A DNA stretch of 64,000 nt. It comes from Novosphingobium sp. B 225 (GTDB lineage: Bacteria > Pseudomonadota > Alphaproteobacteria > Sphingomonadales > Sphingomonadaceae). A program made the translations under genes and the position numbers. How positions within the stretch are numbered: position 1 is the first letter of the stretch; each line of letters opens with the position of its first letter. The stretch covers positions 3,663 to 67,662 of the forward strand of contig NZ_MWLM01000069.1 of assembly GCF_002198665.1 (NCBI RefSeq), in the 5' to 3' direction. Positions 14,631 to 63,998 of the stretch are shown here, one piece after another. The notes under the pieces are model-generated. The model was given only the letters and a program-made list of their open reading frames with translations. It had not been told where the DNA came from and did not search any database.

Positions 14631-16857
<2,227 letters not shown>

Positions 16858-16870
16858 CACACCAACCTCC

Positions 16871-16938: not shown

Positions 16939-16962
16939 GGCTGCGGTGCGCTGTGGCTCGGC

Positions 16963-17637: not shown

Positions 17638-17742
17638 TGCTCACTCCCGGAATTCTGCACAGCCGGTCATGCGCGCGGGGCCATCCAACCGATAATGCGA
17701 AGTTGGCGCTGGCCATAATTATTTGCTAATCGACTGGATGAG
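17638..17742. promoter_or_regulatory. Divergent ligK / LysR-regulator control region
   Basis: A 105-bp gap between divergent starts. It contains an 8-bp palindrome ATAATTAT (17715-17722) and a further ATAAT at 17692-17696, a spacing compatible with LysR-type boxes (T-N11-A motifs). The region around 17710-17735 is clearly AT-richer than its surroundings. Binding of the adjacent regulator is inferred from the usual LysR gene arrangement. Confidence 0.5.
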
Positions 17743-18888: not shown

Positions 18889-18974
18889 TTTCTTCCCAGA
18901 ACGGGGAGGAATGGATTCGCAAATCCTGATAGGTCCGGGCGTCATTCGATTAGCCGCTGCGGCCCCGCGCGCGC

Positions 18975-19859: not shown

Positions 19860-19866
19860 TCTTACT

Positions 19867-20888: not shown

Positions 20889-20892
<4 letters not shown>
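19867..20892 (+). CDS. ligJ: 4-oxalomesaconate hydratase
   Basis: Hydrates 4-oxalomesaconate to 4-carboxy-4-hydroxy-2-oxoadipate. 341 aa, amidohydrolase-like fold with a zinc-binding DCHGHY (His8, His10). The body (TIFSPRASAMAPHVGDQS, GFIGCNLNPDPGGGHF, IIPHGGGAVPYHWGR) matches SYK-6 LigJ as I recall it. GTG 19867 is preferred over ATG 19873 because GGAGGAG (19849-19855) is then 11 bp away and the N-terminus matches the family length. The TGA overlaps the ligA GTG by 4 bp. Confidence 0.95.
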
Positions 20893-23093
<2,201 letters not shown>

Positions 23094-46060: not shown

Positions 46061-47638
46061 GTGAAGCTCACAACACCGCCACGCGTCAGCCCGCAGCAGT
46101 TCGATGTGGCCATGCAGGCCATGGCCGGGGTCGTCGGCAAGGACTGGGTGATGGCCAGCGATGCTGACCGCGATGCCTATGCCGATGCTTATGCACCGGG
46201 GCCGCAAGAACAATGGCCTGCCGGGGCCGCAGTGGCGCCTGCCTCGGTGGAGGAAGTGCAGGCTTTGGTCCGCCTCGCCAACGAACACAAGGTCCCGCTG
46301 TGGCCGGTCGCGCGCGGCAAGAACCTGGGTTACGGCACCGCCGCGCCGCGCATGGCAGGCAGCGTGGTGCTCGATCTGGGCCGGATGAACAAGATCCTCG
46401 AACTGGATGACAAGCTCGCCTACTGCGTGGTCGAGCCGGGCGTCGGGTTCTTTGACCTGTACGAGGAAATTCAGCGCAAGAAATTGCCGCTGTGGATGAG
46501 CGTGCCGGGCAATGCCTGGGGCAGCGTGATCGGCAATGCGCTGGAACACGGGATCGGCTACACCCCCTATGGCCTCCATGCCCGCAACCTCTGCGGGGTC
46601 GAGGCGGTGCTGCCCGACGGCGATGTGGTGCGCACCGGGATGGGCGCGATGAAGGACAATCCGGCCTGGCACCTGTTCCCGATGAGCTATGGCCCGACCT
46701 TTGATCTGGCCTTCACCCAGTCAAACCTGGGGGTCGTGACCAAGGCCGGGATCTGGCTGCAACCGGCACCCGAAAGCAGCCTGGAACTGGTGTTCGACAT
46801 TCCCGAAGCGGGGGATGTGGGCTGGGTGGTCGATACGATCGCCCCGCTCAAGATTTCGGGCCTGATCGATCAGAACGTGTTCATCCCCAGCTGGCTGGGC
46901 AAGATGGTGCTGAAGGGGCAGCGCAAGGATTTCTGGGACAAGCCCGGCGCGATTCCCGAATGGCGGGTGCAGGAACTGCTGAAAGAGCACAAGCTGGGCT
47001 ACTGGCAGGTCGCGCTGCGGCTCTATGGCGAAGAACCGGTGGTCAAGGCCAAGGCCGAGATCATCAAGGCTGCGATGGCGAAGAACCTGAAAGCCCCCCC
47101 GGCTGAAAACTGGTGGCGCAGCGGCGATCCGATCCATGCCTATGAAACCACCATGGGCATCCCCAGCGCCGTGCCGCTGCAGATGTCGGACTGGATCGGC
47201 GGGCGCGGCGCGCACATGGGCTTTTCGCCCGTAGTCCCGGCCACCGGCAAGCACGTGCAGGGGCAGATGGAGCTCAGCCGCAAGATCATCGACAGCTTCG
47301 ATGTCGATTTCTACGCCAGCTTCACCATCGGCGGGCGGTTCGCCAACAACGTCAACATGCTGATGTTTGACCGCGACCAGCCTGAACAGATCGCGACGAT
47401 GAAAAAGCTGTTCAACGCGCTGATCGATGAAACCGCCAAGGCCGGTTACGGCGAATATCGCACGCACCTGGGCTGGATGGACCGGGTGATGGATACGTTT
47501 GATTTCAACGACGGGGCGCTGCGCCGGTTCAATGAAAAAGTGAAGGACGCGCTCGATCCCAACGGGATCATCGCGCCGGGCAAGCAAGGGATCTGGCCCA
47601 GCGCCTACCGCGATCAGGCGAAGGAGGGCCGGGCATGA
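46061..47638 (+). CDS. VAO/4-cresol-dehydrogenase-type flavoprotein
   Basis: 525 aa FAD enzyme of the vanillyl-alcohol-oxidase/4-cresol-methylhydroxylase group, which oxidises the para side chain of 4-alkylphenols through a quinone methide. GTG 46061 has GGGGGAGAG upstream. FAD domain: VARGKNLGYGTAAPR, VVEPGVGFFDLYE, SVPGNAWGSVIGNALEHGIGY. The end GIIAPGKQGIWP is typical of the group. The overlapping cytochrome c gene marks it as a dehydrogenase (like 4-cresol or eugenol hydroxylases) and not an oxidase. The covalent FAD residue could not be placed. Confidence 0.9.
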   Translation: MKLTTPPRVSPQQFDVAMQAMAGVVGKDWVMASDADRDAYADAYAPGPQEQWPAGAAVAPASVEEVQALVRLANEHKVPLWPVARGKNLGYGTAAPRMAGSVVLDLGRMNKILELDDKLAYCVVEPGVGFFDLYEEIQRKKLPLWMSVPGNAWGSVIGNALEHGIGYTPYGLHARNLCGVEAVLPDGDVVRTGMGAMKDNPAWHLFPMSYGPTFDLAFTQSNLGVVTKAGIWLQPAPESSLELVFDIPEAGDVGWVVDTIAPLKISGLIDQNVFIPSWLGKMVLKGQRKDFWDKPGAIPEWRVQELLKEHKLGYWQVALRLYGEEPVVKAKAEIIKAAMAKNLKAPPAENWWRSGDPIHAYETTMGIPSAVPLQMSDWIGGRGAHMGFSPVVPATGKHVQGQMELSRKIIDSFDVDFYASFTIGGRFANNVNMLMFDRDQPEQIATMKKLFNALIDETAKAGYGEYRTHLGWMDRVMDTFDFNDGALRRFNEKVKDALDPNGIIAPGKQGIWPSAYRDQAKEGRA

Positions 47639-48057
47639 AGCACGTGCTGACCGTGGCCGCCGTCGTGCTGCTTGCCGCCTGTTCGAAGCAGGGCGAGGCG
47701 CCTGCCGCTCCGGCGCAGGCCGGTAAAGGCCCGCCACCGCCGCCGCCTTACCAGATGCGGCCCGAAGCGCCCGGCGGCAACCGGCTGGCAGGTGGTGACG
47801 GCAAGACCCTGTTCGAAGTGAACTGCGGCTATTGCCACCTGACCGGCGGCATGGGCACCAACTTGCTGACCAAGCAGCGCATGGCCGCGGGCGAACCGCC
47901 CGAAAAGGGCCTGCTGGCCAATCGCACCGATCTTACGGCAGACTACGTCAAGCAAGTGGTGCGGCTGGGCAAAAACGCCATGCCACCGCAAACCAAGGTC
48001 GATCTGACCGATGCCGAGCTTGAGGCGGTGGCGGCCTATCTGGGGAAAGCCAAGTGA
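47635..48057 (+). CDS. Lipoprotein c-type cytochrome, electron acceptor of the flavoprotein
   Basis: 140 aa. Signal with lipobox LLAAC (Cys16), then a Pro-rich linker and a single-haem domain with CGYCH (Cys64, Cys67, His68). The probable axial Met is in KNAMPPQTKVDLTD. The ATGA overlap with the flavoprotein gene fits the PchF/PchC (or EhyB/EhyA) flavocytochrome arrangement; here the cytochrome is membrane-anchored, so electrons likely pass to the periplasmic chain. Confidence 0.88.
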   Translation: MKHVLTVAAVVLLAACSKQGEAPAAPAQAGKGPPPPPPYQMRPEAPGGNRLAGGDGKTLFEVNCGYCHLTGGMGTNLLTKQRMAAGEPPEKGLLANRTDLTADYVKQVVRLGKNAMPPQTKVDLTDAELEAVAAYLGKAK

Positions 48058-49365: not shown

Positions 49366-50190
49366 ATGGCCGAAGTCACCCTCTATCATTGGGAGCCGAA
49401 CGCCAACTCCGGCAAGCCGATGCTGGCCTTGATGGAAAAGGGTGTCACGTTCGACAGCCACTACATCGACATGCTGAACTTCGATCAGCACCGGCCCGAA
49501 TACCTTGCGATCAACCCGCAGGGGACGATCCCGGCGATGACCCATCGTGGCACCTGGGGTGACCGGGTGCTGGTCGAATCCACCGCGATCATGGAATATG
49601 TCAACGAACAGTTCGACGGGCCAGACCTGATGCCCGGCGATGCGCGCGATCGCTGGCGGATCCGCTGGTGGATGAAATTCATGGATCAGTGGCTCGCCCC
49701 CAGCTTCTCGATGTTCGGGTGGAAATTCTTCGTCGGCCCCAATGCGCTGAAGGCGCACGGGCAGGACAAGATCGAAGCGCAGATTGCGCGCATTCCGCTG
49801 CCCGAACGCCAGACCGCCTGGCGCAAGGCGGTGTTCGGCCTGTTCAGCGAAGCAGAAATGGCCGAAAGTGGTCGGCGGATCGGGGTGGGCATCCAGATGC
49901 TGGAGGCGGAACTGGGCAAGCGCGAATGGCTCGCCTCGGACCAGTATTCGCTGGCCGATGTGAACGGCTTCAACCTCGCCTATGCCATGCCGCTGTCGCA
50001 ACCGCATCTCGCCAACGATGATCTGACCCCCAACATCATGCGCTGGCTGCGCGCGATCTATCGCCGCCCCGCCACGCGCGAATGCTGGAAACTGGGCCGC
50101 ACTCCGATGGCAAGCCGGGTCGAGATTCTGGAGCAGGACTACATCCCGCCGCGCGACGAGAGCGAAGGCATTGCGAGCGGAGTGCGCTGA
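49366..50190 (+). CDS. Glutathione S-transferase, LigF-like beta-etherase candidate
   Basis: 274 aa. N-terminal thioredoxin-like domain NANSGKPMLALMEKGVTF with the Asn/Ser region that binds GSH in Lig-type GSTs, then the helical domain. IPLPERQTAWRKAVFG and VGIQMLEAELGKREWLASDQYSLADVNGF resemble SYK-6 LigF (IPIPEQQLKWRR..., ...ADICNF) as I recall it. LigF attacks the beta-aryl ether carbon of oxidised lignin dimers with glutathione. The first gene of the GST-GST-ligase-PQQ operon, which fits that role. Stereospecificity cannot be told. Confidence 0.8.
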   Translation: MAEVTLYHWEPNANSGKPMLALMEKGVTFDSHYIDMLNFDQHRPEYLAINPQGTIPAMTHRGTWGDRVLVESTAIMEYVNEQFDGPDLMPGDARDRWRIRWWMKFMDQWLAPSFSMFGWKFFVGPNALKAHGQDKIEAQIARIPLPERQTAWRKAVFGLFSEAEMAESGRRIGVGIQMLEAELGKREWLASDQYSLADVNGFNLAYAMPLSQPHLANDDLTPNIMRWLRAIYRRPATRECWKLGRTPMASRVEILEQDYIPPRDESEGIASGVR

Positions 50191-50947: not shown

Positions 50948-52513
50948 ATGCGTTCCATTGACTATTTCGACCGCGGCCATGACCGCGACCCCCAGCGCCT
51001 TGCGATTATCGACACCGCCAGCGGGCTCAAGCTGACTTTTGCAGAGGTCAAGGAATTGACCGAGCGGATCGCCGCTGCGCTGCAGCGCGGGGGCTTCCAG
51101 AGCCAGGATCTGTTGGGGCTGTATGGCCCGAACGACGGGATGCTGCTGGTGGTGCTGCTGGCGATGTGGCGCGCGAATGGCAAGTGGATCCCGGTCAACA
51201 CCCGCAACGCGATTGACGCCAATGCTGGCTATATCAACTATGTGCGCTGCCAGTGGATGTTCTACCATTCGTCAAAAGCGGACGAGGTGGAGCAGCTCAA
51301 AGCGCTGTGCCCGCCGCTGCGGCACTTCGTATGTCTCGATCAGCCCTGCGGCGATGATCCCAGCCTGGAGCAGTTCATGGCCGGGGTCAGCGCTGCCGAC
51401 TTTGTCGAACCCGAGATCGACGCCTTCGGCAATATGATGGACATGGTCGGGATATTCCCCACCGGCGGCACCACCGGCCCCAGCAAGGGCGCGAACGTCA
51501 CCAACCTGGGTTGGGGAACCATGATCGAAACCGCCGCCGATGCCATGGGCGGGCGCACTGAAGCTCCCGTAGCGCTGGTCTCTGCCCCGATCACCCACGC
51601 CGCCGGGCCGATCGCGCTTTCAACGATGAGTTTGGGGGCGACCCAGGTAATCCTGCCCGGTTTCGATGCCGAGGAAGTCTTGCAGGCCATCGATCACTAC
51701 AAGATCACCCACATGTACCTGCCGCCAACCGCGCTCTATCAGCTGCTCGCCTCGCCCAAGCTGGACAGTCATGACTATTCCAGCCTCAGGATCTTCATTC
51801 TGGTCGGCAGCCCGTGCAGTCCGGAAAAGCTGCGGCAGGCGGTGGAAGTGTTCGGGCCGTGTATGTGCCAGAGCTATGGTCAGGTCGAATGCCCGATGAT
51901 CGTCGCCTGGTTCCCGCCCGAGGACGTCGCGCGATTTGCGAAGGAAGCGCCGGAAAAGCTGGCGAGCTGCGGCAAAGTAACCCGTTCGATCAAGGTCGCG
52001 CTGCTGGATGACGATGGCAAGCAGGTAGCCCTGGGCGAAAGCGGAGAGATCTGCGCGCGCGGGGTGCTGGTCTCGCACTCCTACTTCGAAAAACCCGAGG
52101 AAACGGCGGAAGTGCGCAAGTTCGGCTGGCACCATACCGGCGATGTCGGCAAATTCGATGCCGATGGCTATCTCTACATTGTCGATCGCAAGAAGGACAT
52201 GGTCGTGACCGGCGGGTTCAACGTCTTCACCACCGAGGTCGAAGCCTGCATCACCGAACTGCCGCAAGTGCGCGAATGCTGCGTGTTCGGGATTCCACAC
52301 GAAAAGTGGGGCGAACAGGTCCACGCAGTCGTCGTTGCGGACGGAATCAGCGCAGAAGCGGTCATTACTCACACCAAAAATCGCCTCGGCGGGGTCAAAG
52401 CGCCGAAAACAGTTGCATTTATAGACTCGATTCCGCGAACAGCAGCGGGCAAGATGGATAAGAAGGAACTGCGCAAGCCATATTGGGGTGGCAGTGACCG
52501 GATGGTCAATTGA
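50948..52513 (+). CDS. AMP-forming acyl-CoA synthetase
   Basis: 521 aa ANL-family ligase. Adenylation motif FPTGGTTGPSKGANVTN (about 171-187), YGQVECPM, HHTGDVGKFDADGYLYIVDRK, and the C-terminal Lys motif PRTAAGKMDKKEL are all present. It converts a carboxylic acid to its CoA thioester. Candidate substrates are an aromatic beta-keto acid from ether cleavage (vanilloyl acetate type) or ferulate for the ferB-type enzyme. The sequence does not decide. Confidence 0.9.
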   Translation: MRSIDYFDRGHDRDPQRLAIIDTASGLKLTFAEVKELTERIAAALQRGGFQSQDLLGLYGPNDGMLLVVLLAMWRANGKWIPVNTRNAIDANAGYINYVRCQWMFYHSSKADEVEQLKALCPPLRHFVCLDQPCGDDPSLEQFMAGVSAADFVEPEIDAFGNMMDMVGIFPTGGTTGPSKGANVTNLGWGTMIETAADAMGGRTEAPVALVSAPITHAAGPIALSTMSLGATQVILPGFDAEEVLQAIDHYKITHMYLPPTALYQLLASPKLDSHDYSSLRIFILVGSPCSPEKLRQAVEVFGPCMCQSYGQVECPMIVAWFPPEDVARFAKEAPEKLASCGKVTRSIKVALLDDDGKQVALGESGEICARGVLVSHSYFEKPEETAEVRKFGWHHTGDVGKFDADGYLYIVDRKKDMVVTGGFNVFTTEVEACITELPQVRECCVFGIPHEKWGEQVHAVVVADGISAEAVITHTKNRLGGVKAPKTVAFIDSIPRTAAGKMDKKELRKPYWGGSDRMVN

Positions 52514-52560: not shown

Positions 52561-54672
52561 ATGCGTTTGAAGCTGCTTGCCGCCATCTGTCTGTTGCCGC
52601 TTGCCGCCTGCGGCAAGCATGCCTCGCCCCCGGTAACCGAAGGCGTCACCGACGCAATGATCGCCTCTGCCCCTGAAGGTGAATGGCTCACCTATGGCCG
52701 AGACTATGCCGAGCAGCGCTTTTCGCCGCTGACCTTGGTCAACGATACGAACATCGGCCAACTGGGCCTGGCGTGGAGCCACGATCTGGAAACCGCGCGC
52801 GGGCAGGAAGCGACTCCGCTGATGCATGACGGCGTGCTGTACGTCTCCACCGCCTGGTCGATGGTCAAGGCGTTCGATGCCAAGACCGGCGCGCTCAAAT
52901 GGTCCTATGACCCCAAGGTCCCGCGCGACACGCTGGTCCGCGCCTGCTGTGATGCAGTCAATCGCGGCGTCGCGCTTTATGGTGACAAGGTCTATGTCGG
53001 CACGCTCGACGGGCGACTGGTCGGGCTGGATCAGAAGACTGGCAAGGTTGCCTTCGAGAAGGTCGTGGTCCCCAACCAGAAGGATTACACCATCACCGGC
53101 GCGCCGCGCGTGGCCAAAGGGAAGATCCTGATCGGTTCGGGCGGCGCCGAATACAAGGCACGCGGTTACATTGCCGCCTATGATCCGCAGACCGGCGATG
53201 AATTGTGGAAGTTCCACACCGTTCCCGGCAACCCGGCTGACGGGTTTGAAAACAAGGCCATGGAAGAAGCCGCCAAGACCTGGGGCAATTCCAAGTGGTG
53301 GGAACTGGGCGGTGGCGGCACCGTGTGGGATTCGATCACTTATGATCCCGCCACCAATCTGGTCTATTTCGGCACCGGCAATGCTGAACCGTGGAATCCG
53401 GCCGCCAATGGCCGCGCCGGCGACAGCCTTTACACCAGCTCGATCGTCGCGATCGACGCGGATAGCGGCGAGTACAAATGGCACTTCCAGGAAACTCCGG
53501 AAGACCGCTGGGACTTCGATTCCAATGCGCAAATCACTGCCGCCGATCTGGACGTGAACGGGCAAAAGCGCCGCGTGGTGCTGCATGCGCCCAAGAACGG
53601 CTATTTCTACATGCTCGATGCCAAGACCGGCCAATTCATCAGCGCCGGGGTGTTCTCGCAGCAGACCTGGACCACCGGGATCGATCCCAAGACCGGACGC
53701 GCCCAGATCAATCCCGAAGCCAAGTACGAACAGACCGGCAAGCCCTTCCTTTCGCTTCCCGGTGCCGCCGGCGCACACAGCTGGCAACCGATGAGCTTCA
53801 GCCAGAAGACGGGGCTGGTCTATATTCCCGCCAACCTGGCCGGCATGCCCTATGCCGCCGCCAAGGACTGGAAGCCCAGCGATATCGGTTTCCAGACCGG
53901 GATGGACGGCGCGCTGACAGCAGCCCCGGCTGACAAGGCGATCCGTGAAGGAGCCAAGGCGGTTACCACCGGCGCGCTGATCGCCTGGGATCCGATCAAG
54001 CAGAAGGAAGCCTGGCGCGTCACTTTCACCGGTCCATGGAACGGCGGCACGCTGTCGACCGCCGGTAACCTGGTGTTCCAGGGCAACGCCGATGGCTATT
54101 TCGCGGCCTATAGCGCGGACAAGGGTGCCAAGCTCTGGTCATTCCCGACCCAGACCGGGGTGATCGCCGCGCCGATGACTTACACCGTCGATGGCGAACA
54201 ATATGTTGCCGTCATGGCCGGTTGGGGCGGGGTGTGGGACGTCGCGACTGGCGTCGTCGCGCGCAAGAGCGCCGGGCATTACAACATCAGCCGTCTGCTG
54301 GTGTTCAAGCTTGGAGCCAAGGGCACGCTGCCCGCGATGAAGAGCATCAATGACCTGCCGCTCGATCCGCCGCCGTTCACCGGCAAGCCGGAACAGGCCG
54401 CCGCCGGTGCAGACAAGTTCGCGCGCTACTGCTCGGTCTGCCATGGCGACGCCGCGCTGCCCGGCACGCTCAACCCCGACCTGCGCCGCTCGCAGTACAT
54501 CAATGCCGCCGAAGGTATCCGCGCGGTGGTGATCGACGGGGTGCTGATGCACGGCGACAATCCGAAGGGCATGGTCTCGTTCAAGTCGTCACTCAGCCCG
54601 GATGATGTCGAAAACATCCGCCAGTACCTGATCAAGCGCGCCAACGAGGACAAGGCGCTGGGCGAGAAGTAG
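52561..54672 (+). CDS. PQQ-dependent quinohaemoprotein dehydrogenase, lipoprotein (second)
   Basis: 703 aa, GGAGAGG upstream. Lipobox LAAC (Cys17). PQQ propeller with vicinal Cys129-Cys130 (RACCDAVNRG) and EDRWDFDSN. C-terminal cytochrome c domain CSVCH (Cys624, Cys627, His628). It is a paralogue of the 43299 protein with the same architecture but clearly diverged sequence. As last gene of the GST-ligase operon it may oxidise the primary alcohol left after ether cleavage, such as hydroxypropiovanillone; this is inferred from the operon. Confidence 0.92.
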   Translation: MRLKLLAAICLLPLAACGKHASPPVTEGVTDAMIASAPEGEWLTYGRDYAEQRFSPLTLVNDTNIGQLGLAWSHDLETARGQEATPLMHDGVLYVSTAWSMVKAFDAKTGALKWSYDPKVPRDTLVRACCDAVNRGVALYGDKVYVGTLDGRLVGLDQKTGKVAFEKVVVPNQKDYTITGAPRVAKGKILIGSGGAEYKARGYIAAYDPQTGDELWKFHTVPGNPADGFENKAMEEAAKTWGNSKWWELGGGGTVWDSITYDPATNLVYFGTGNAEPWNPAANGRAGDSLYTSSIVAIDADSGEYKWHFQETPEDRWDFDSNAQITAADLDVNGQKRRVVLHAPKNGYFYMLDAKTGQFISAGVFSQQTWTTGIDPKTGRAQINPEAKYEQTGKPFLSLPGAAGAHSWQPMSFSQKTGLVYIPANLAGMPYAAAKDWKPSDIGFQTGMDGALTAAPADKAIREGAKAVTTGALIAWDPIKQKEAWRVTFTGPWNGGTLSTAGNLVFQGNADGYFAAYSADKGAKLWSFPTQTGVIAAPMTYTVDGEQYVAVMAGWGGVWDVATGVVARKSAGHYNISRLLVFKLGAKGTLPAMKSINDLPLDPPPFTGKPEQAAAGADKFARYCSVCHGDAALPGTLNPDLRRSQYINAAEGIRAVVIDGVLMHGDNPKGMVSFKSSLSPDDVENIRQYLIKRANEDKALGEK

Positions 54673-54838: not shown

Positions 54839-55843
54839 TCACGGCGCGATCAGGACCTTGCATTGCTGGGTCCGCTGTTTCAGCGCAGCGAACATATCGG
54901 GCACGTCATCAAGCCCAATCGTCCCGGTCACCAGCAGTCGCGGCTCGACCGCGCCCTGGCTTAATACGTCGAGCGCGTGCTCGTAGTCCTGCCGGGTGAA
55001 GAAAGCGCTGGTGACCAGTCGCACCTCCTTTTGCAGCATGGCGAAGGAATTGAACGTATCGGGCCGGGTGCACAGCCCCAGCAGCAGGATCGTTCCGCGA
55101 TTGCGGACCTGCCCAACCGCCTGCGCAATCAGGCCGGGCACGCCGACGCATTCGAACACCACGTCGGGCTTGCCGTGTGGAAAGGCGCGGTCGCTGGCAC
55201 CCACCGGATCGGCGGCATTGGCAATGAAAGCATCGGCCCCCATCGCCTGCGCACGGTCGCGCTGCCAGTCGGCCAGATCCTGCACCACCACCCGCGCGGC
55301 GCCCAGTCGCTTGGCCCAAAAAGCGGTTGCCAGTCCGATCGGTCCCGCGCCCAGCACCAGTGCGCTGTCGCCCGGTTTCAGGCCGGACAGCCGCACCCCG
55401 TGCAGCGCCACCGCCAAAGGCTCGATGATCGCGCCATCGGCCAGACTGGCGCTTTTGGGCAAAGGTATGCATTGGTTGGGGCGGGTGAGGGCGAATTCAG
55501 CATAGCCACCGCCCTGTAGCCCAAACTGCGCGCACCACTGGACTTCACCCTTGCGGCAATGATCGCAGGTGCCGCAGCTTTTGAGCGGGATCACCGAGAC
55601 CAGATCGCCCGTGCGCAGCCCGTCCGCGCCTTTGCCCAGTGCCACCACTTCGCCCGCGAATTCGTGGCCAAACACGTCGCCTGGGCACGCTCCATAGGCG
55701 GCATCCTCGGCCATGTGCAGATCGCTGCCGCAAATGCCGCAGCGCGCCACCTTGACCAGCACTTCACCCGCGCCGGGGGCAGGGTCGGGCACATGTTCCA
55801 GCGCCAGCCGCTGCCCCAGACCGGTGAAGACCGCTGCCTTCAT
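54839..55843 (-). CDS. Zinc-dependent alcohol dehydrogenase (MDR family)
   Basis: 334 aa. Catalytic zinc site CGICGSDLHM and GHEFAGEV; structural zinc Cys4 CGTCDHCRKGEVQWC (about 90-104); Rossmann motif LGAGPIGLA (about 167-175). NAD(P)-dependent oxidation of a secondary or primary alcohol is expected. It ends the minus-strand operon VOC-MFS-cupin-SDR-ADH and overlaps the SDR stop by 4 bp. With the SDR it may form or use the hydroxyacetophenone substrate of the cupin dioxygenase. Confidence 0.9.
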   Translation of the reverse strand: MKAAVFTGLGQRLALEHVPDPAPGAGEVLVKVARCGICGSDLHMAEDAAYGACPGDVFGHEFAGEVVALGKGADGLRTGDLVSVIPLKSCGTCDHCRKGEVQWCAQFGLQGGGYAEFALTRPNQCIPLPKSASLADGAIIEPLAVALHGVRLSGLKPGDSALVLGAGPIGLATAFWAKRLGAARVVVQDLADWQRDRAQAMGADAFIANAADPVGASDRAFPHGKPDVVFECVGVPGLIAQAVGQVRNRGTILLLGLCTRPDTFNSFAMLQKEVRLVTSAFFTRQDYEHALDVLSQGAVEPRLLVTGTIGLDDVPDMFAALKQRTQQCKVLIAP

Positions 55844-56664
55844 TTGGGCGGACCCAAGGCAACCCCGCCGTCGATCAGCAGGGTCGATCCGGTCATGAAG
55901 CTGGAAGCATCGCTGGCCAGATAGAGCGCCAGCGGCTTCATCTGGTGCGTCTCAGCCATTGCGCCCAGCGGGATGGTCGCGTCGAACGCGGCCTTTACTG
56001 CCGGGTCCTTTTTGGCCCAGCCATCGCCGATATTGGTCACGAATGGTCCCGGGGCGATGGCGTTGACGCGGATGCGAAAGCGGGCCAGCTCCAGCGCGAG
56101 CGCGCGGACCATGTGCAGCACGCCCGCCTTGGCCGGGTGATAGGGCATCGGCACGATCGGCTCCAGGATCATCCCTGCATTGCTGGCCGTGGCAATGATC
56201 GACCCGCCCGCTCCGCCTGCCTTCATCAGCCGCGCGGCGCTGCGCATGGTGTTGTAACTACCGGTCAGGTTGATCGCGATGCCCCGATCCCACAACGCGG
56301 GATCATAGGTGTCGATCTGCCCATCGGCTACGCGGCTGCCATCGGGGGCGACGAAGCCTGGCCCTTCGCCAAGGCCCGCATTGGCAAAGCAGATGTCGAG
56401 CCCGCCGAAAGCGGCCGCATGGGCATCGAACACTGCATCACAGCCCGCGCGGTCCGTCACGTCCAGCACGGCGGTGCGCACCGTAAAGCCTTCAGTGGTC
56501 AGGCGCGCGGCCTCACGCTCCAGCCCCGCCGCGTCGATGTCGGTCAGGGTTACTTTCGCACCGGCTTCGGCCATGGCCTCGGCATAGCAAAGGCCGATGC
56601 CGGATGCCGCACCGGTGACCAGTGCGGAACGTCCGGTAATCGCGAACTGATCGAGTGTCTTCAC
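55840..56664 (-). CDS. Short-chain dehydrogenase/reductase
   Basis: 274 aa SDR. TGAASGIG (about 18-25), FANAG (about 93-97), YHPAK active site. The C-terminus STLLIDGGVALGPPK is standard. Overlaps both neighbours by 4 bp (ATGA), so it is tightly coupled to the cupin gene before it and the alcohol dehydrogenase gene after it. A benzylic or alpha-carbonyl alcohol is a possible substrate; not visible directly. Confidence 0.88.
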   Translation of the reverse strand: MKTLDQFAITGRSALVTGAASGIGLCYAEAMAEAGAKVTLTDIDAAGLEREAARLTTEGFTVRTAVLDVTDRAGCDAVFDAHAAAFGGLDICFANAGLGEGPGFVAPDGSRVADGQIDTYDPALWDRGIAINLTGSYNTMRSAARLMKAGGAGGSIIATASNAGMILEPIVPMPYHPAKAGVLHMVRALALELARFRIRVNAIAPGPFVTNIGDGWAKKDPAVKAAFDATIPLGAMAETHQMKPLALYLASDASSFMTGSTLLIDGGVALGPPK

Positions 56665-57203
56665 AGATAGAGCTTCTTGTTGATCGGAATGCCGTTGGCT
56701 TTGCAGTGGTTTTCATAGTGTTCCATGAACCACCAGACATCGGCGGTGAACGCGAAGGTCGCATCCGAATTGTAGAATTCGATCGGACCCTGCATCCACC
56801 CGAACAGCTTCACGCCCTGGGGATGTTCGGTGACCAGTGTGTGGCTTTCTCCCGGCACTTCCAGGATCAGCCCGCCCGGGGTCGCAACCCAGTCATACTC
56901 CAGATAGCGCACCGACCCTTCCAGGCAGACCATGGTGATGGTGCCGCGGTGCAGGTGGGTGCCGATCGCGCCGGGGCCCTTAACCCACAGGATGTTGGAG
57001 AACAGATTCTGGCGCACGTCAAAGCACAGGTGCTTGATCGCGGCATTATCGCCAAACGGAACCCACGGGCTGTCAACATCGGTCAACGCATCGATATAGC
57101 GCCCGCCGGGGCTGTATTTTTCGACCAGCGCGCGCTGGTCAAACGGTACATCCACGATTTCGGCATAGTCAGATGGCGGCACACTGCGGTCTACGGTAGC
57201 CAT
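56661..57203 (-). CDS. Cupin dioxygenase, 2,4'-dihydroxyacetophenone dioxygenase-like
   Basis: 180 aa, single cupin barrel. Metal ligands fit His83, His85 (THLHRG) and His121 (ESHTL); the 2-residue and 36-residue spacing is that of known 2,4'-dihydroxyacetophenone dioxygenase. That enzyme cleaves 4-hydroxyphenacyl alcohol to 4-hydroxybenzoate and formate. A methoxylated analogue would give vanillate. It could also be a general ChrR-like cupin, but length and motifs favour the dioxygenase. GGAGAG precedes the ATG. Confidence 0.8.
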   Translation of the reverse strand: MATVDRSVPPSDYAEIVDVPFDQRALVEKYSPGGRYIDALTDVDSPWVPFGDNAAIKHLCFDVRQNLFSNILWVKGPGAIGTHLHRGTITMVCLEGSVRYLEYDWVATPGGLILEVPGESHTLVTEHPQGVKLFGWMQGPIEFYNSDATFAFTADVWWFMEHYENHCKANGIPINKKLYL

Positions 57204-57221: not shown

Positions 57222-58490
57222 TTATTGTTTGCCGCGCGCCAGCACGCGCGGGGCGGATTCCTGCAGGAACAGCGCGGCGACCCCGCCAGCGAGCGCCAGC
57301 AGGACCATGAACCACAGCGGTGCATCACGGCCCAGCGACTGTGAGAGCTGCCCGGCAATTGCCGGTCCGCCAGCGCCGCCCAAAATCTCGCACGATCCCA
57401 TGCACAGGCCGAATACGGTCGCTGCCTTGTCCGGACTGACGCTTTCGGAAGGCACGGTGGCCATGAACAACGGGAAGATGCCGTTAAGCGCCCAGCCGAC
57501 GAAGAAGATCGCCGCCAGCCCCCAGGCCGATCCCTGATAATACATCGCGCCCAGCGGCAGGATCACTGCCAGAAACGAACAGGCAATCATCACCGGTCGC
57601 CGCCCGATCACATCGGACAGACCGGCAATGGCAAAGCTGCCCAGCGTCGCCGAAATCCCAAGGGTGCCCATCAGCCAGCTGCCGGTGGTCTGATCGAACC
57701 CGCGGTTCTGGATCAGGTACAGCGGCATGAAGGCCCAGCAGGTAACCAGATAGGCGACCAGCGCGATCCCCATCACCACGCAAACCCAGATGTTGCGCAC
57801 TTTCAGCACTTCGCGCACCGCGCCGACCCAGCCGGAAAAGCTGCCACTCTCGCCAGCCGGGGCGGCGTGCGGGTTGGGGGCGGGTTCATCAAGCAGGAAC
57901 CAGATCAGCAATGCACTGATCAGGCCGGGCAGCCCGGCGATGTAGAAAGCGTTCTGCCAGCCATAATTTGCCGCCAGCCAGACCAGCACCACCGGGGCAA
58001 CGAAGGATCCGAAGAAGTTCGAGCCAAAGTTCTGCGCGATCCCTTGCGCCAGCCCGCGCCATCTTGGTTCCACTTCGGACGCGACCATCGCATGGCTGAT
58101 CGGCATGACCCCGCCTTCGGCAATCCCCATCAGGATCCGCGCGCCGACCAGCATGGCAAAGCTGGCGGCAAGTCCGGTCAGGAACGAGCACGCCGAAAAG
58201 GCCAGAGTGGCAATCACCAGCAGCAGCTTGCGGTTGCCGACCATGTCTGACAGGCGGCTGATCCCGAAGGCGGCCAGCGCCCAGGTGAACGAAAAGATCC
58301 CCGCCACCGCACCAACCTGTCCGTCACTCAGTTGCAAGTCCGGCTGGACGAAGGGCATCAGGAAGTTGAGCGAATTGCGATCGAAGAACACGATCCCGAA
58401 GTTGAGGCTGAGCAAGCCGACCAGCAACGCCTGATATCCGGTCGAACGGCCGGTCTCGGTGGGCGGGGCCGGGCTGGATGGTGCCTGCAT
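57222..58490 (-). CDS. MFS transporter (ACS/aromatic acid:H+ symporter-like)
   Basis: 422 aa from ATG 58490, 12 predicted membrane helices. The N-half opens NFGIVFFDRNSLNFLMPF, with the Asp/Arg pair of the anion:cation symporter group, then GISRLSDMVGNRKLL, the conserved MFS loop 2-3 motif. GARILMGIAEGGVMPISHAM is helix 4-5 with the conserved Glu. It probably imports an aromatic acid or ketone across the inner membrane for the flanking operons. The start 38 codons further upstream was rejected because the added part has no membrane-protein character. Confidence 0.88.
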   Translation of the reverse strand: MQAPSSPAPPTETGRSTGYQALLVGLLSLNFGIVFFDRNSLNFLMPFVQPDLQLSDGQVGAVAGIFSFTWALAAFGISRLSDMVGNRKLLLVIATLAFSACSFLTGLAASFAMLVGARILMGIAEGGVMPISHAMVASEVEPRWRGLAQGIAQNFGSNFFGSFVAPVVLVWLAANYGWQNAFYIAGLPGLISALLIWFLLDEPAPNPHAAPAGESGSFSGWVGAVREVLKVRNIWVCVVMGIALVAYLVTCWAFMPLYLIQNRGFDQTTGSWLMGTLGISATLGSFAIAGLSDVIGRRPVMIACSFLAVILPLGAMYYQGSAWGLAAIFFVGWALNGIFPLFMATVPSESVSPDKAATVFGLCMGSCEILGGAGGPAIAGQLSQSLGRDAPLWFMVLLALAGGVAALFLQESAPRVLARGKQ

Positions 58491-58527
58491 TGAACTGTCC
58501 CCTTTGTGTCTAACGCGGTCGCGGTGA

Positions 58528-59076
58528 TCAGATGAACGGACGGATCGGATCCTTGCCGTTCCAATCCTGCGCGGCCTTCCAGAAACTGGTGAAATGGGCA
58601 TCCATTCCCGGCGTTACCGGCAGCAGCTCGATAAAGGCGGGGGCAGCGCAATGGCCGCTTTCAAGGAACACCACGTCCCCGCCTGTCGGCACCGGAGAGC
58701 GGAAACATTCGCGCCAGCCGCGCGCCTGATATTCGGCCAGGGCGGCATCTACATCGGTTACGGCAATCCCGTGGTGGTGCAAGCCATAGCCCCTGCTTTC
58801 GATCACTTCCCGGTAGACCGAAGGCTCTTTATCCAGCGGCTGGATCAGTTCGAACCAGGTCTGTCCGGAAAAGCCCATCGCGATCCGTTGATCTGCGGTG
58901 CTGATTGCGCCGCGATAGGTTTGTTGTCCGGCTTGCAGAAAATGGTCGATCACGAAGAACGGCCCTGCGCCGCAATCGCGAATCAGGTGGTCGATCGCGG
59001 TATCCAGATCCTCAACCACCCAGGCGATCTGGGCAACCGTGCCAAGTTGCTGGCCCCAGCCGAGCTTGCCGATCAT
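58528..59076 (-). CDS. VOC (glyoxalase/extradiol dioxygenase fold) protein
   Basis: 182 aa from ATG 59076 (GGGAGA upstream). Glyoxalase_4-like fold: QIAWVVEDLDTAIDHLI opens the first beta-alpha-beta-beta-beta unit and GLHHHGIAVTDVDAALAEY the second. His in HHHGIAV and Glu in FIELLP could bind a metal. First gene of the minus operon. It could be an epimerase, isomerase or lyase of a CoA or keto compound; no closer call is possible. Confidence 0.78.
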   Translation of the reverse strand: MIGKLGWGQQLGTVAQIAWVVEDLDTAIDHLIRDCGAGPFFVIDHFLQAGQQTYRGAISTADQRIAMGFSGQTWFELIQPLDKEPSVYREVIESRGYGLHHHGIAVTDVDAALAEYQARGWRECFRSPVPTGGDVVFLESGHCAAPAFIELLPVTPGMDAHFTSFWKAAQDWNGKDPIRPFI

Positions 59077-59161
59077 CGCCAATCTCCCGCCTTACCGGGG
59101 ATTTCGGGGGCAAAACGGAAAGCCCGCGCCACCTGTGCATCCCCTCTGGAATTTGTAAGTT

Positions 59162-59264: not shown

Positions 59265-61076
59265 ATGGCGCAATCTGCCAAGCGATTCCCGTTGCCCAGT
59301 TCGGTCGGGGTGGCCCCCGGCACCGAAGCCGCGCAGGCGGCCTATCCGTGGTACATGCAGTTTGAACCGGGCGACGATACCCGTTTCTGGTTCTACAATT
59401 CGATGCATTTCCCCGAACCGATGTGCCTGTTTGATATGGTTACGGCCGAGGCGGCCTATATCGCGCTGGGGGCATCAAACACGCGGGTCCACTCGCTGCC
59501 CACCACCAAGGGGATCGATTACCGGATCGTCAACGGGCGGGTCTATATCGGCGGCCACGGCGTGACCGATCCTGCCGAGATCGAGGAACGCACTGCCGAA
59601 TTCCAGCAGCGCGCGTTCTATTACTACGAGCATTGGGAGCGGCTTTACGATCAGTGGAAAGGCAAGATGAAGGCGCTGATCAACGCTGCACAGGCCCTGC
59701 CAAAGGTCGAACTGCCCCGTTACGAGCCGCTGGAAAATGTCCACGCGGGCAAGGGCGTTGCCGCCAACCACACACTGCTGACCACCTGGCACGCCACGCT
59801 GGAAGGTTACTTCCGCATGTGGCACCACCACTTCGAATTCCTGCTGCTGGGCTACGGCGCCTACATGGTGTTCTTCGATTTCTGCAAGAAGGCCTTTCCC
59901 GAGATCACCGACCAGACCATCGCCCGGATGGTAGCCGGGTTCGAAGCGGAGATCTTCCAGCCCGATGAGGAAGTGAAACGTCTGTCTCGCCGCGCGGTGG
60001 AACTGGGGGTCGATCACCATTTCATCGATAGTCAAAGCGCCGATCAGATCATGGCCTCGCTACAGGCGTCGGGTCAGGCCGGGCAGGACTGGCTCACCGC
60101 GCTGGAGAGCAGCCGCAACCCATGGTTCAACGTCAACGTCGGCGACGGGTTCTATCACTATCACCGCAGCTGGAACGACGACCTGTCGCTGCCCTTCGCG
60201 GCGATCCCCGGCTATGCCGCCAAGATCCGCGCGGGCGAGAATATCGAGCGCCCCACCGAGGCACTGATGGCCGAACGGCAGGAGCTGATCGAGGGTTACC
60301 GCGAACTGCTGGGCAGCGACGAGGAACGCGCTGCCTATGACCAGATGATCGAGCTGGCCTGCCGCGTGTTCCCCTATGTCGAGGGGCACAAGTTTTATTG
60401 CGAGCACTGGTACACCAACCTGTTCTTCAACAAGGTCCGTGAATACGGCGCACTGCTGGCCGGGCTGGGGATGTGGGACGCGGAGGAGGACATCTTCCAC
60501 CTCAGCCGCTATGAGGTTGAGCAGGCGATCGTCGATGCCATGACCAGCTGGGCCATCGGCCTGCCGCCACGCGGGACGCAGCGCTGGCGACCGCTGATTG
60601 CCGAACGCAAGGCCGCGCTTCAGGTCTGGTCCGGGATGGAAAGCAGCCCGGCGCTGGGCGAGGTCCCCGATCTGATCGATGATCCGGCAATCGTCATGTT
60701 GTGGGGGATCACCCGCGAAAGCCTTGATCGTTGGCTGGATGGCGGAGAGGAGAACCCGAACGAGATCAAGGGCTTTGCCGCCAGCTCAGGCGTGGTCGAA
60801 GGGACCGCACGGGTGGTCAAATCGGTGCAGGACATCGGCCGGTTGCAACAGGGCGACATCCTGGTCTGCCAGGTCACCAATCCCACCTGGGCGCCGGTGT
60901 TCCAGAAGATCGCCGCTGCCGTGTCCGACATCGGCGGCTCGATGAGCCACGCGGCGATTGTCGCGCGCGAATATGGCCTGCCCGCGGTGGTCGGCACCGG
61001 CAAGGCCACCACCCGCATCCCCGATGGCGCCCGCATCCGGGTGGACGGTGCACGTGGGCTGGTGACCATACTGTGA
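59265..61076 (+). CDS. PEP-synthase-type phosphotransferase subunit, phospho-His swivel (AcvA/phenylphosphate synthase alpha-like)
   Basis: 603 aa. The C-terminal third is the PEP-utilising mobile domain with phospho-acceptor His562 in GGSMSHAAIVAREYGLP; the N-terminal 450 residues are a substrate domain without the PEP/pyruvate TIM barrel, so it is not PEP synthase. Together with the next gene it matches phenylphosphate synthase subunits 1 and 2 in size and layout, and the AcvAB/HpeHI kinases that phosphorylate the phenol of acetovanillone-type ketones. Predicted reaction: ATP + phenol substrate to aryl phosphate. CAGGAGAGG lies upstream of the ATG. Its stop overlaps the next gene (GTGA). 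Confidence 0.82.
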   Translation: MAQSAKRFPLPSSVGVAPGTEAAQAAYPWYMQFEPGDDTRFWFYNSMHFPEPMCLFDMVTAEAAYIALGASNTRVHSLPTTKGIDYRIVNGRVYIGGHGVTDPAEIEERTAEFQQRAFYYYEHWERLYDQWKGKMKALINAAQALPKVELPRYEPLENVHAGKGVAANHTLLTTWHATLEGYFRMWHHHFEFLLLGYGAYMVFFDFCKKAFPEITDQTIARMVAGFEAEIFQPDEEVKRLSRRAVELGVDHHFIDSQSADQIMASLQASGQAGQDWLTALESSRNPWFNVNVGDGFYHYHRSWNDDLSLPFAAIPGYAAKIRAGENIERPTEALMAERQELIEGYRELLGSDEERAAYDQMIELACRVFPYVEGHKFYCEHWYTNLFFNKVREYGALLAGLGMWDAEEDIFHLSRYEVEQAIVDAMTSWAIGLPPRGTQRWRPLIAERKAALQVWSGMESSPALGEVPDLIDDPAIVMLWGITRESLDRWLDGGEENPNEIKGFAASSGVVEGTARVVKSVQDIGRLQQGDILVCQVTNPTWAPVFQKIAAAVSDIGGSMSHAAIVAREYGLPAVVGTGKATTRIPDGARIRVDGARGLVTIL

Positions 61077-62107
61077 CCGTGGCCTGGTTTGCCGATCTGA
61101 CGCTTGCTGACCGCCCCGCCGTGGGTGGCAAGGGCGCGAGCCTGGGCGAACTGATCAAGGCAGGGATCGCGGTGCCCCCGGGCTTCGTGGTGCGGACCGA
61201 AGGGTTCGAAAGCTTCGTCACTGCGCTCGACGCGGCCGAGCCACTGCGCGCGCCGGTCGAGGCGCTCGATCCTGCCGACCTCGCCCGTGCCGAGGCGGTG
61301 TGCGCCGCAGTGCGCGCGCGGATCGAGGCGGCGGCGCTGCCCGCTACGGTCGAACAGGCGGTGCGCGCATCACTGGCAGAACTGGTCCCGCAGGGTGAGC
61401 CGGTCGCGGTCCGCTCCAGCGCGACGACCGAGGATTCTGATGAAGCCAGCTTTGCCGGGCTGCAGGATACCTACCTGTGGCAGATCGGGCCGGAGCAGGT
61501 GCTGGGTGCCGTGCGGCGCTGCTGGGCCAGCCTCTACAGCCTCGAAAGCGTCACCTATCGCCGCAAGCACGGCCTGCCCGAAGCTGGGGTGGCGATGGGG
61601 GTGGTGATCCAGCGGATGGTCGATGCACGGTGCGCCGGGGTGATGTTCACCCGCAGCCCGACCACGGGGGACCGCTCGGTCATCACGATCGAGGGCGCGT
61701 GGGGCCTTGGCAGCGCAGTGGTCTCGGGCGAGGTGACGCCGGACCGCTGGGTGATCGGCAAGCTGACTGGTGAGATTCCGGTGCGCGACATCTCTGACAA
61801 GCATATCCGCCAGGTTCCGGCCCCTGGCGGCGGGATCGTCGATGAGGCGGTGCCGGACACCGAACGCAAAGTCCCCTGCCTCTCCGATGATGACTTGCAG
61901 CGTCTGCGCGCGATCGGGCGGCAGGTTGAAAAGCATTACGGCAAGCCGCAAGACATCGAATGGGCAATCGACCGCGTGAGCGGCGAGGTGCTGCTGCTCC
62001 AGAGCCGCCCGGAAACCGTCTGGGCCGCCAAAGACCAGGCCCCGGTCGCAACCGCGCAGGCCAATCCATTGGGTCATCTGATGACCGTGTTCGGAGGCCG
62101 GAAATGA
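61073..62107 (+). CDS. ATP-binding subunit of the split kinase (AcvB/phenylphosphate synthase beta-like)
   Basis: 344 aa starting at GTG 61073 inside the upstream stop. It carries only the ATP-grasp PEP/pyruvate-dikinase N-terminal domain: VGGKGASLGELIKAGIAVPPGF, VAVRSSATTEDSDEASFAGLQ, GVMFTRSPTTGD, and LLLQSRPETVW at the end. It would phosphorylate His562 of the partner subunit using ATP. The ATGA stop overlaps the biotin carrier gene. The split between swivel and ATP subunits is what separates this group from one-chain PEP synthase and PPDK. Confidence 0.85.
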   Translation: MTVAWFADLTLADRPAVGGKGASLGELIKAGIAVPPGFVVRTEGFESFVTALDAAEPLRAPVEALDPADLARAEAVCAAVRARIEAAALPATVEQAVRASLAELVPQGEPVAVRSSATTEDSDEASFAGLQDTYLWQIGPEQVLGAVRRCWASLYSLESVTYRRKHGLPEAGVAMGVVIQRMVDARCAGVMFTRSPTTGDRSVITIEGAWGLGSAVVSGEVTPDRWVIGKLTGEIPVRDISDKHIRQVPAPGGGIVDEAVPDTERKVPCLSDDDLQRLRAIGRQVEKHYGKPQDIEWAIDRVSGEVLLLQSRPETVWAAKDQAPVATAQANPLGHLMTVFGGRK

Positions 62108-62547
62108 GCCTGTCGGGCAAGGATGTTGCGGAGATTGCCCGGCTGCTCGATCAGTCGCGCTTTACCGAACTCAAGCTGGAGATCGGCGATTTCCGGCTGC
62201 GCATCCGCCGCGACGGGCAGAGCGGTGGAGGTTTCGCGGACGCTCCGCCGCCGCCCATCGCCGCGCCCGATCCTGCCCCGCTGCCTGTCACCAGTGTCCC
62301 GGCTGCGGGCGAGCAAGATGTCCCGGCGCCGTTTCTTGGCACTTTCTTTCACGCTCCGCGCCCCGGCGATCCGCCGTTCGTGGAACCGGGGCAGAAGGTG
62401 CGTGAGGATACGGTGATCGGGATCATCGAAGTGATGAAGCTGATGAACCCGATCCGTGCTGGGGTGGCCGGGACGGTGGTGGCCGCGCTTACCCCAAATG
62501 GCGCGGCGGTGGAAGCCGGGCAGCCGCTGATCCGGGTGGCGGTCTGA
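62104..62547 (+). CDS. Biotin carboxyl carrier protein of a ketone carboxylase
   Basis: 147 aa. N-terminal helix region, a Pro/Ala-rich linker (about 45-70), then the biotinyl domain with the biotin Lys112 in EVMKLMN (the usual AMKM/VMKL motif), as in AccB. It is encoded between the kinase and carboxyltransferase genes with overlapping stops on both sides, so it is part of a dedicated carboxylase and not of fatty-acid synthesis. Confidence 0.88.
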   Translation: MSLSGKDVAEIARLLDQSRFTELKLEIGDFRLRIRRDGQSGGGFADAPPPPIAAPDPAPLPVTSVPAAGEQDVPAPFLGTFFHAPRPGDPPFVEPGQKVREDTVIGIIEVMKLMNPIRAGVAGTVVAALTPNGAAVEAGQPLIRVAV

Positions 62548-63998
62548 TGGCCAGGATCGGCATGGTCGAAACCAGCCTGCGTGATGGCAACCAGAGCCTG
62601 TGGGCGGCGCTGGGGGTGGACAGCGCGCGCACGCTGACGGTTGCGCCGCTGATGGCTGCCGCCGGGTTCCGCGCGATCGATTTCACCACCTCGACCCACA
62701 TGGGCGTTGCCGTCCGCTACAAGCAGGAAGATCCGTGGCAGCGGATCCGGCTGATGGCGCAGGCCTGCCCGGATGTGCCGCTGCAGTTCCTCTCCACGGG
62801 GTTCCGCTTCATCAGCTGGGAAACCGCGACGCCGGACTTCATGGCGCTGGCTTACAAGACGCTGGTGACCAACGGGATGCGGCGGTTTGCGCTGGCCGAT
62901 CCGATGAACGATGTGGCCGGCAACCTTGCGGGTGCGCGCATGGCCAAGGCGGGCGGGGCGGATCAGGTGATCGCCGCGCTGGTCTTCACCGTCAGCCCGA
63001 TCCACGATGATGCGCACTTTGCGCAGTGCGCCCGCGAACTTGCCGCGTCGGCTGATGTCGATGCGCTCTATATCAAGGATCCGGGCGGGCTGCTCTCGGC
63101 CGAACGCGCGCGCACCCTGATCCCGGCTGTGCAGGCGGTGATCGCTGGCAAGCCGCTGGAACTGCACAGCCATTGCACCATCGGCCAGGCCGATACCTGC
63201 TACCTTGCCGCGACCGAGCTTGGCGTGGACGCGCTGCAATGCGCCAGCGGCGCCGCCGGGGACGGCACTTCCAACCCGCCGATCGAACGGGTGATCGCCA
63301 ACCTCAAGGCACTGGGCCACACCGTCGATGTGGACGAAGAGGCCGTGGCGCGGATCGCGCGTTATTTCGATGACCTCGCACAGGCTGAAGATCTGCCGCG
63401 CGGCATGCCGCAGGCCTTCGATGCGGCCTATTATCGCCACCAGCTGCCCGGCGGCATGGTCGGGACGATGCGGCGGCATCTGTCCGAACAGCGGCTCAGC
63501 CAGGTCGAAGGCCAGGTGATCGAGGAGATCGGCCGGGTCCGCGAAGAGCTGGGCTGGCCGATCGTGATGACCCCGTTTGCGCAGATGGTGCTGACCCAGG
63601 CGGTGATGAATGTCACCGGGGCCGAACGCTATGGCGTGATCCCGGACGAGGTGGTGCGCTATGCGCTGGGCAAGTTCGGGCGGCCCAACGTGCCGATCGC
63701 GCCCCATGTGATGGACCGGATCATGGCCAGCCCGCGCGCGAAGGAACTGGCGGCGGAGACCGGCATGGCCGACCTAGCCACGCTGCGCCAGCGGTTGGGT
63801 GCGCAGCTTTCGGACGAGGAGTTCCTGCTGCGCGCGACCATGCCTGCGGAACAGGTTGCTGCGATGCGTGAGGCGGCGGACCTGCACTATGACCCCACCA
63901 AAAGCGGCGCGATGAATCTGCTGCGGGACCTGCTCGAGCGCAGCGATGTCGAGACCATTGCCATCGCCCGCGAGGGCTTCCGGTTGGAGCTGTCGTGA
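62547..63998 (+). CDS. Biotin-dependent carboxyltransferase (pyruvate/oxaloacetate carboxylase type)
   Basis: 483 aa, HMGL-like TIM barrel plus the C-terminal carboxylase domain. Metal ligands: Asp13 in SLRDGNQS and His207/His209 in ELHSHCT; YIKDPGGLL carries the likely carbamylated Lys. In oxaloacetate/pyruvate carboxylases the first motif is RDAHQS; here Asn replaces the His, which may mark a ketone substrate such as a phospho-acetophenone. It matches the carboxyltransferase of the AcvCDE/HpeCBA logic, carboxylating the methyl ketone to an aroylacetate. The stop overlaps the ATG of a following gene at 63998-64000, cut by the window end (expected biotin carboxylase or phosphatase). Confidence 0.87.
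   Translation: MARIGMVETSLRDGNQSLWAALGVDSARTLTVAPLMAAAGFRAIDFTTSTHMGVAVRYKQEDPWQRIRLMAQACPDVPLQFLSTGFRFISWETATPDFMALAYKTLVTNGMRRFALADPMNDVAGNLAGARMAKAGGADQVIAALVFTVSPIHDDAHFAQCARELAASADVDALYIKDPGGLLSAERARTLIPAVQAVIAGKPLELHSHCTIGQADTCYLAATELGVDALQCASGAAGDGTSNPPIERVIANLKALGHTVDVDEEAVARIARYFDDLAQAEDLPRGMPQAFDAAYYRHQLPGGMVGTMRRHLSEQRLSQVEGQVIEEIGRVREELGWPIVMTPFAQMVLTQAVMNVTGAERYGVIPDEVVRYALGKFGRPNVPIAPHVMDRIMASPRAKELAAETGMADLATLRQRLGAQLSDEEFLLRATMPAEQVAAMREAADLHYDPTKSGAMNLLRDLLERSDVETIAIAREGFRLELS

Follow-up and report, generated by a model that had tools for sequence, protein, structure and literature searches.

We analysed a 64,000-nucleotide stretch of the Novosphingobium sp. B 225 genome (3.71 Mb, 73 contigs, 99.96% complete), referred to as the window (C66:3663-67662), whose contig C66 extends to 141,743 bp. 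Near the end of the window lie four co-directional genes, in the order kinase A, kinase B, biotin carboxyl carrier protein (BCCP) and carboxyltransferase (CT). All are intact and overlap by 4, 4 and 1 nt; a first-pass annotation of this DNA had proposed four overlapping genes of these kinds. That annotation also forecast a biotin carboxylase (BC) and a phosphatase just past the window edge. The phosphatase indeed follows at once, but the BC is absent and a LigE-type gene comes next instead. The genes are as follows.

59265..61076, plus strand: kinase A (HpeH/AcvA-like), 603 aa, with a substrate-binding region and a swivel domain (PF00391, 84 bits, residues 528-598).
61073..62107, plus strand: kinase B (HpeI/AcvB-like), 344 aa, GTG start, an ATP-grasp protein (PF01326, 332 bits, residues 15-328) sharing 4 nt with kinase A.
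62104..62547, plus strand: BCCP, 147 aa (PF00364, 57.6 bits), with the biotinyl lysine Lys112 in EVMKL, sharing 4 nt with kinase B.
62547..63998, plus strand: CT of the pyruvate carboxylase (PYC)/OadA fold, 483 aa, with an HMGL-like (PF00682) and a PYC_OADA (PF02436) domain.
From window position 63995 (C66:67657-68469; L002:7658-8470), plus strand: HAD-IIA (NagD-like) phosphatase, HpeD/AcvF-like, 270 aa (PF13344, 73 bits).
C66:68474-69301, downstream of the HAD gene after a 4-nt gap: LigE-type beta-etherase, a glutathione S-transferase.

The CT is 65-72% identical over its length to proteins in 12 other genomes of the order, and kinase A is 70-74% identical to its counterparts in the seven genomes searched, so the genes are real, far beyond chance. 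As had been claimed, the kinase consists of two subunits and lacks a phosphoenolpyruvate (PEP) domain: a Pfam scan finds the swivel domain in one subunit and the ATP-grasp domain in the other, and the PEP-binding C-terminal domain in neither. Both subunits also score below the NCBIfam cut-offs for the PEP-synthase family, and kinase A matches NF006153 ("hypothetical protein") with 752 bits (cut-off 578). Its catalytic His562 lies within the SDIGGSMSH motif of the swivel domain, a type of histidine motif present in 68 of 69 kinase A sequences. According to the excerpted text of the HpeH paper, phenolic kinases have a methionine where PEP synthase has a threonine, and the motif found here has methionine at that position. 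The top match of kinase B in the PDB is 9goj (264 bits), which is the structure of HpeI.

The biotin carrier and the carboxyltransferase were likewise recognised correctly from the start. The BCCP scores 102 bits against the AccB family TIGR00531, below the cut-off of 115. In an alignment of 20 sequences, and in alignments to 2nx9, 5ks8 and 1s3h, the CT has the residues D13, K177, H207, H209 and T342, which we take to be catalytic. The latter alignments also reveal a segment LSTGFR where oxaloacetate decarboxylase, pyruvate carboxylase and transcarboxylase 5S have LLRGQN. Thr84, invariant in the 20 aligned sequences, thereby occupies the position of an arginine in OadA, PYC and 5S that presumably binds the carboxylate of pyruvate. 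Moreover, the CT stays below every NCBIfam cut-off for pyruvate carboxylase and OadA (NF006761: 280 bits versus a cut-off of 402). Membership in the PEP synthase or pyruvate carboxylase families was rejected, since the scores are under the cut-offs, the PEP domain is absent and LLRGQN is replaced. The first-pass annotation had named downstream genes of another pathway, or proteins clustering with PEP synthase or acetyl/propionyl-CoA carboxylases, as speaking against its own reading, and neither objection was borne out. A sodium-pumping decarboxylase was also rejected, as no OadB was found in this genome. We consider it scarcely credible that the genes are a chance grouping of a kinase from a phenylphosphate-synthase or cresol (CreHI) route, or of a CT from pyruvate or oxaloacetate metabolism. 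The two-subunit architecture is common to HpeHI, CreHI and PpsAB, as far as the excerpted source goes, and the top PDB match of the CT is an oxaloacetate decarboxylase alpha subunit. However, kinase, BCCP, CT and phosphatase are found together at many loci in several phyla, which adds to the replaced LLRGQN segment and the lack of OadB.

The gene set resembles two systems described previously. In acvABCDEF of Sphingobium (lignivorans) SYK-6, kinase A, kinase B, BCCP, CT and the HAD phosphatase are arranged in the same order, and all five proteins present here have an acv counterpart (73, 68, 42, 71 and 70% identity, respectively). In SYK-6, however, BCCP and CT are separated by a BC gene that is missing here; in addition, our BCCP is far less similar than the other subunits, and a LigE beta-etherase follows the phosphatase. 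The hpeHICBADEF cluster of Rhodococcus rhodochrous GD02 also consists of overlapping genes for a two-component dikinase, BCCP, CT and a NagD-like phosphatase, and its HpeI is matched by kinase B. The order in GD02 is BCCP-CT-BC, whereas here there is no hpeA (BC), nor hpeE or hpeF beside the operon. In the excerpted account of PMC9618137, hpeHICBAD encodes the dikinase, BCCP, CT, BC and NagD-like phosphatase and acts on acetovanillone and 4-hydroxyacetophenone, and acvABCDEF is homologous and syntenous with hpe. HpeCBA could not be produced in E. coli and was obtained in Rhodococcus jostii RHA1. The pathway type is thus already known. The initial assignment to it was largely right with regard to gene set, order and identities to SYK-6; the BC that it led one to expect was wrongly forecast.

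No BC was found in the operon or its 3' flank, where the next genes past the window were read, and there is no room for one between BCCP and CT because the two genes share one base. A search of the whole genome with PF02785 finds three BC genes.

BC gene 1: accC, adjoining accB.
BC gene 2: a 672-aa subunit of fused size, in an operon with a 542-aa carboxyltransferase and, by names read from the sequence, an apparent methylmalonyl-CoA epimerase and mutase, hence of the propionyl-CoA carboxylase/mutase kind.
BC gene 3: a 647-aa subunit of fused size, adjoining a 507-aa carboxyltransferase.

A dedicated BC elsewhere in the genome was rejected, as all three loci are accounted for and AccC is the sole stand-alone BC. 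Of these BCs, only AccC is free for this operon.

The absence is not peculiar to this genome. A CT match at E <= 1e-60 occurs in 36 of the 396 genomes that make up our sample of the order. In the 12 genomes with a close-type CT besides our own, a BC lies between BCCP and CT in five, all of group g20, which includes SYK-6, and is absent in seven. A scan of named genomes, SYK-6 included, was then summarised for 80 loci, the best 80 of 286 relatives: 40 have a BC, always before the CT, 38 have none and two are cut and undecidable. The BC-less loci span Erythrobacteraceae, Acidobacteriota and Gammaproteobacteria, and the type strains of Croceibacterium soli and Alteraurantiacibacter aquimixticola are among the BC-less; at one of these loci, L133, 127 bases after the CT are covered, and at L117 no phosphatase was seen. 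Although publications describe the carboxylase of this pathway as having three components, a BC of its own among them, nearly half of the close relatives here are BC-less. Remnants of a BC were sought by comparing the 11 BCCP-CT gaps longer than 100 bp with BC proteins, and were rejected because only short, weak matches appeared (best E 0.005 among the matches listed). An additional BC gene lies downstream at four of the 38 BC-less loci (L086, L092, L098 and L135); with frames of 663-751 codons these are of fused size and were not accepted as the missing subunit. A plasmid-borne operon was rejected as well, since 17 plasmid records have a CT relative at E <= 1e-60 and none of these reaches 60% identity; plasmid CT relatives at about 50% identity name the genus Novosphingobium.

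A more distant group in the same genus, clade B (L048-L064), has operons for a UPF0261 kinase, BCCP, BC, CT and HAD phosphatase, presumably of the MarK type of Novosphingobium aromaticivorans. They share with our operon the BCCP, the CT (46-51% identity), the HAD phosphatase and often divergent VOC and MFS genes. Unlike our operon, they have a UPF0261 protein in place of the two-component kinase (406 aa in L063, which was scanned; similar open reading frames occur in L049 and L058). BC is present in 16 of the 17 clade B loci, and the 17th is cut by a contig end.

By frame length and position, all eight BC-less genomes have a single stand-alone BC gene. All seven genomes in which one operon contains a BC have two, and one genome with two BC-containing operons has three. 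The extra genes are located inside the operons. AccC adjoins AccB in all 15 genomes looked at, and the sole stand-alone BC in each of the eight BC-less genomes is this housekeeping AccC. In one genome, G325 (99% complete, 9 contigs), no BC besides AccC was found at all; provided that the operon is functional there, no other known enzyme of G325 could charge the carrier.

G325 also bears on two other ways of charging the carrier. First, the same pathway might draw on a fused alpha subunit of an acyl-CoA carboxylase of the propionyl- or methylcrotonyl-CoA type rather than on AccC. Two such subunits are encoded in our genome, and one or more BCs of fused size occur in seven of the eight BC-less genomes, but G325 has none. 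Furthermore, fused subunits carry their own biotinyl domain, and the better NCBIfam match of the BCCP, though below cut-off, is the AccB family, which together makes this route improbable. Second, the BC-less enzyme might be a transcarboxylase, in which a second carboxyltransferase passes CO2 from another carboxylated metabolite to the BCCP, on the model of the propionibacterial 12S/5S/1.3S enzyme. The 5S subunit has the CT fold, and our genome encodes two PF01039 carboxyltransferases, on C68 and C25, with no BC among the neighbours seen in 12 kb. Nevertheless, the PF01039 carboxyltransferases found in G325 are of AccA/AccD size only, no second carboxyltransferase is seen in the operon and BC-less CTs are interspersed with BC-containing ones on the tree; we consider a transcarboxylase more doubtful still. 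The two large PF01039 genes (L169:4663-6414 on C68 and L170:4938-6404 on C25) are perhaps further borrowers of a shared BC.

We then reconstructed the history of the BC. In a CT tree of 92 rows, comprising 11 of the 17 clade B loci, no clade C loci and 11 BC-containing outgroup rows, BC status needs five changes, four of which are forced by starred branches. Because of the 11 BC-containing outgroup rows, the changes are read as losses. Quick trees of the other subunits require six changes for kinase A (four forced), seven for kinase B (four forced) and six for the HAD phosphatase (five forced). Careful trees were built with 42 rows, for the CT, and with 45 rows. The former requires six changes, five of them forced, and rejects a single BC-less clade (p 1.6e-39).

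The carrier behaves differently from the rest of the operon. Our CT, kinase A and kinase B are placed beside those of the BC-containing loci L073 and L075. Our BCCP, in contrast, shares 62-65% identity with those of two BC-less Erythrobacteraceae and 47% with that of L073. In approximately unbiased (AU) tests, the BCCP data reject a grouping of our carrier with its CT sisters (p 5.1e-5). The alphaproteobacterial BC-less carriers form one clade in the BCCP tree (support 91/86, not starred), a clade that the CT data reject (p 7.6e-5). In Alphaproteobacteria, then, the BC-less state is tracked by the BCCP but not by the CT, through either recombination or convergence.

Taken together, we favour, with reasonable though far from full confidence, that the operon is of the Acv/Hpe type, acts on phenolic methyl ketones, has lost its dedicated BC and has its carrier charged by the housekeeping AccC. 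We infer the charging by AccC because alternatives are absent and because of the tree patterns. By homology, the steps would likely be the following. Kinase B would take ATP, and His562 of kinase A would pass the phosphoryl group to the phenol oxygen, as in HpeHI. The BCCP would be biotinylated and its biotin carboxylated, with ATP and bicarbonate, by the AccC of acetyl-CoA carboxylase. The CT would transfer CO2 from carboxybiotin to the methyl carbon of the ketone (acetovanillone, 4-hydroxyacetophenone or close kin), giving an aryl-beta-ketoacid phosphate from which the HAD phosphatase would strip the phosphate. The free beta-ketoacid would then be cleaved to a benzoate by an acyl-CoA ligase together with a hydrolase or thiolase. 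With marginally less confidence, we extend this to a general proposal: AccC also acts in trans for a second biotin enzyme, a catabolic one, the BC was dropped repeatedly in Alphaproteobacteria, Gammaproteobacteria and Acidobacteriota, and the alphaproteobacterial carrier was exchanged or altered so as to suit AccC.

A related arrangement is found in Streptomyces coelicolor, where several carboxyltransferases are served by one BC-bearing subunit, AccA1/A2 (PMC13118682, excerpted text). Unlike in that case, the carrier here is a separate protein and only the BC would be borrowed. In actinobacterial acyl-CoA carboxylases the carrier domain is shared too. Our literature search, outside which the original SYK-6 and MarK papers fell, returned no account of a BC-less form supplied by AccC. 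Published papers mention, in their excerpted text, clusters with various combinations of hpe homologues, and the BC-less form may therefore have been seen before.

The operon lies in a lignin-aromatics island, whose nearest members are listed below.

58528..59082, minus strand: VOC/glyoxalase-like protein (PF13669), divergent from the operon, with 50-64% homologues beside several clade B loci.
57222..58601, minus strand: MFS transporter (PF07690), probably for aromatic uptake, with 49-59% homologues beside clade B loci.
56661..57203, minus strand: cupin of the 2,4'-dihydroxyacetophenone dioxygenase family (PDB 4p9g, E 3e-18; Cupin_7 22.4 bits, below the cut-off of 27).
55840..56664, minus strand: SDR dehydrogenase (PF13561), probably accessory.
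54839..55843, minus strand: zinc-type alcohol dehydrogenase (PF08240/PF00107), putatively accessory.
50948..52513, plus strand: acyl-CoA ligase (PF00501), a candidate for CoA activation after dephosphorylation.
49366..50190, plus strand: LigF-like glutathione S-transferase (PDB 4xt0, LigF, E 8.5e-40), a beta-etherase candidate.

Homologues of the acyl-CoA ligase are found directly after the HAD gene in L075 (52%) and near the operon, on the opposite strand, in L058 (75%). In L063, cupin, SDR, alcohol dehydrogenase and MFS genes follow the HAD phosphatase. At six acidobacterial loci (L100, L114, L120, L133, L138 and L144) a cupin of the 2,4'-dihydroxyacetophenone dioxygenase type stands between the two kinase genes, as if its reaction were part of the same pathway. 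Elsewhere in the window, a protocatechuate 4,5-cleavage cluster (14783-23093) contains a 4,5-dioxygenase-type subunit, a 4-oxalomesaconate tautomerase and a LigK-type aldolase, all over NCBIfam cut-offs, as well as amidohydrolases recognised by Pfam only. A lignostilbene dioxygenase NOV2 and a p-hydroxycinnamoyl-CoA hydratase/lyase are also over their cut-offs. At 46061-48057, an FAD-linked oxidase and a small cytochrome c are arranged in what we take to be the manner of alkylphenol methylhydroxylase, and this pair could make hydroxyphenyl ketone precursors. The same island has two alcohol dehydrogenases dependent on pyrroloquinoline quinone (43287-45485 and 52561-54672) over the TIGR03075 cut-off.

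The downstream LigE-type protein scores 456 bits against the NCBIfam bet_ethrase family (cut-off 440) and matches LigE in the PDB (4yam, 365 bits; also 4yan), and two glutathione S-transferases in the window have LigF as their top PDB match, one strong and one weak. Given the island and the LigE gene, a lignin ketone is a sensible substrate, and the LigE-type beta-etherase and nearby LigF-like proteins would probably supply ketones from beta-O-4 dimers. A LigE-type enzyme of Agrobacterium reportedly acts differently. A beta-etherase over the family cut-off is present in 30 of the 396 genomes of the order: in 26 of the 29 with close CT relatives (clades A and B, drawn by us at a gap in the table of CT matches) compared to 4 of 367 others. 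Relatedness was handled to genus level only, and within our own genus the figures are 12 of 13 versus 2 of 19. This tie at the genome level suggests cleavage of beta-aryl ethers as the source of the ketone. There is a lesser chance that acetovanillone and 4-hydroxyacetophenone are minor substrates, and that the operon acts chiefly on a different phenolic methyl ketone or on a larger aryl ketone released when beta-ethers are cleaved. The LigE gene in the string, the nearby LigF-like proteins, and the dihydroxyacetophenone dioxygenase-family cupin, present in the divergent genes and inside the six acidobacterial operons, would agree with this; the approximately 70% identity to the SYK-6 Acv proteins, which serve acetovanillone and acetosyringone in the excerpted description, argues against it.

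Several points weigh against an AccC-charged operon fed by beta-ether cleavage. The partnership between AccC and the BCCP is deduced from sequence, fused BC subunits exist in most of the genomes here, and our BCCP is just 42% identical to that of SYK-6. The BC-less operons might be inactive, although EVMKL is kept in all 39 BC-less BCCPs. Recombination, and not adaptation, could account for the discordance of the carrier; the AU-test groups were picked after the identities had been seen, and the BCCP of L073 is a long branch. The gain in AccB-likeness of BC-less carriers is small (44-45% versus 39-40%) and confined to Alphaproteobacteria, the acidobacterial and gammaproteobacterial ones being slightly less AccB-like. 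Finally, only 3 of the 80 named loci, as fetched, include LigE, so that its association with the CT in 26 of 29 genomes is mostly co-occurrence, not linkage.

If near half of the close relatives work without a BC of their own, both the annotation of such operons and their use in metabolic engineering need to change; in a host with a fitting AccC, two genes could be enough for the carboxylase. G325, where no further BC was found beside AccC, is a natural test case for whether a PYC-type carboxyltransferase can share a BC. Were AccC indeed the partner, the breakdown of lignin ketones would be linked to fatty-acid synthesis, and growth on these ketones would use the enzyme pool of membrane lipid synthesis.

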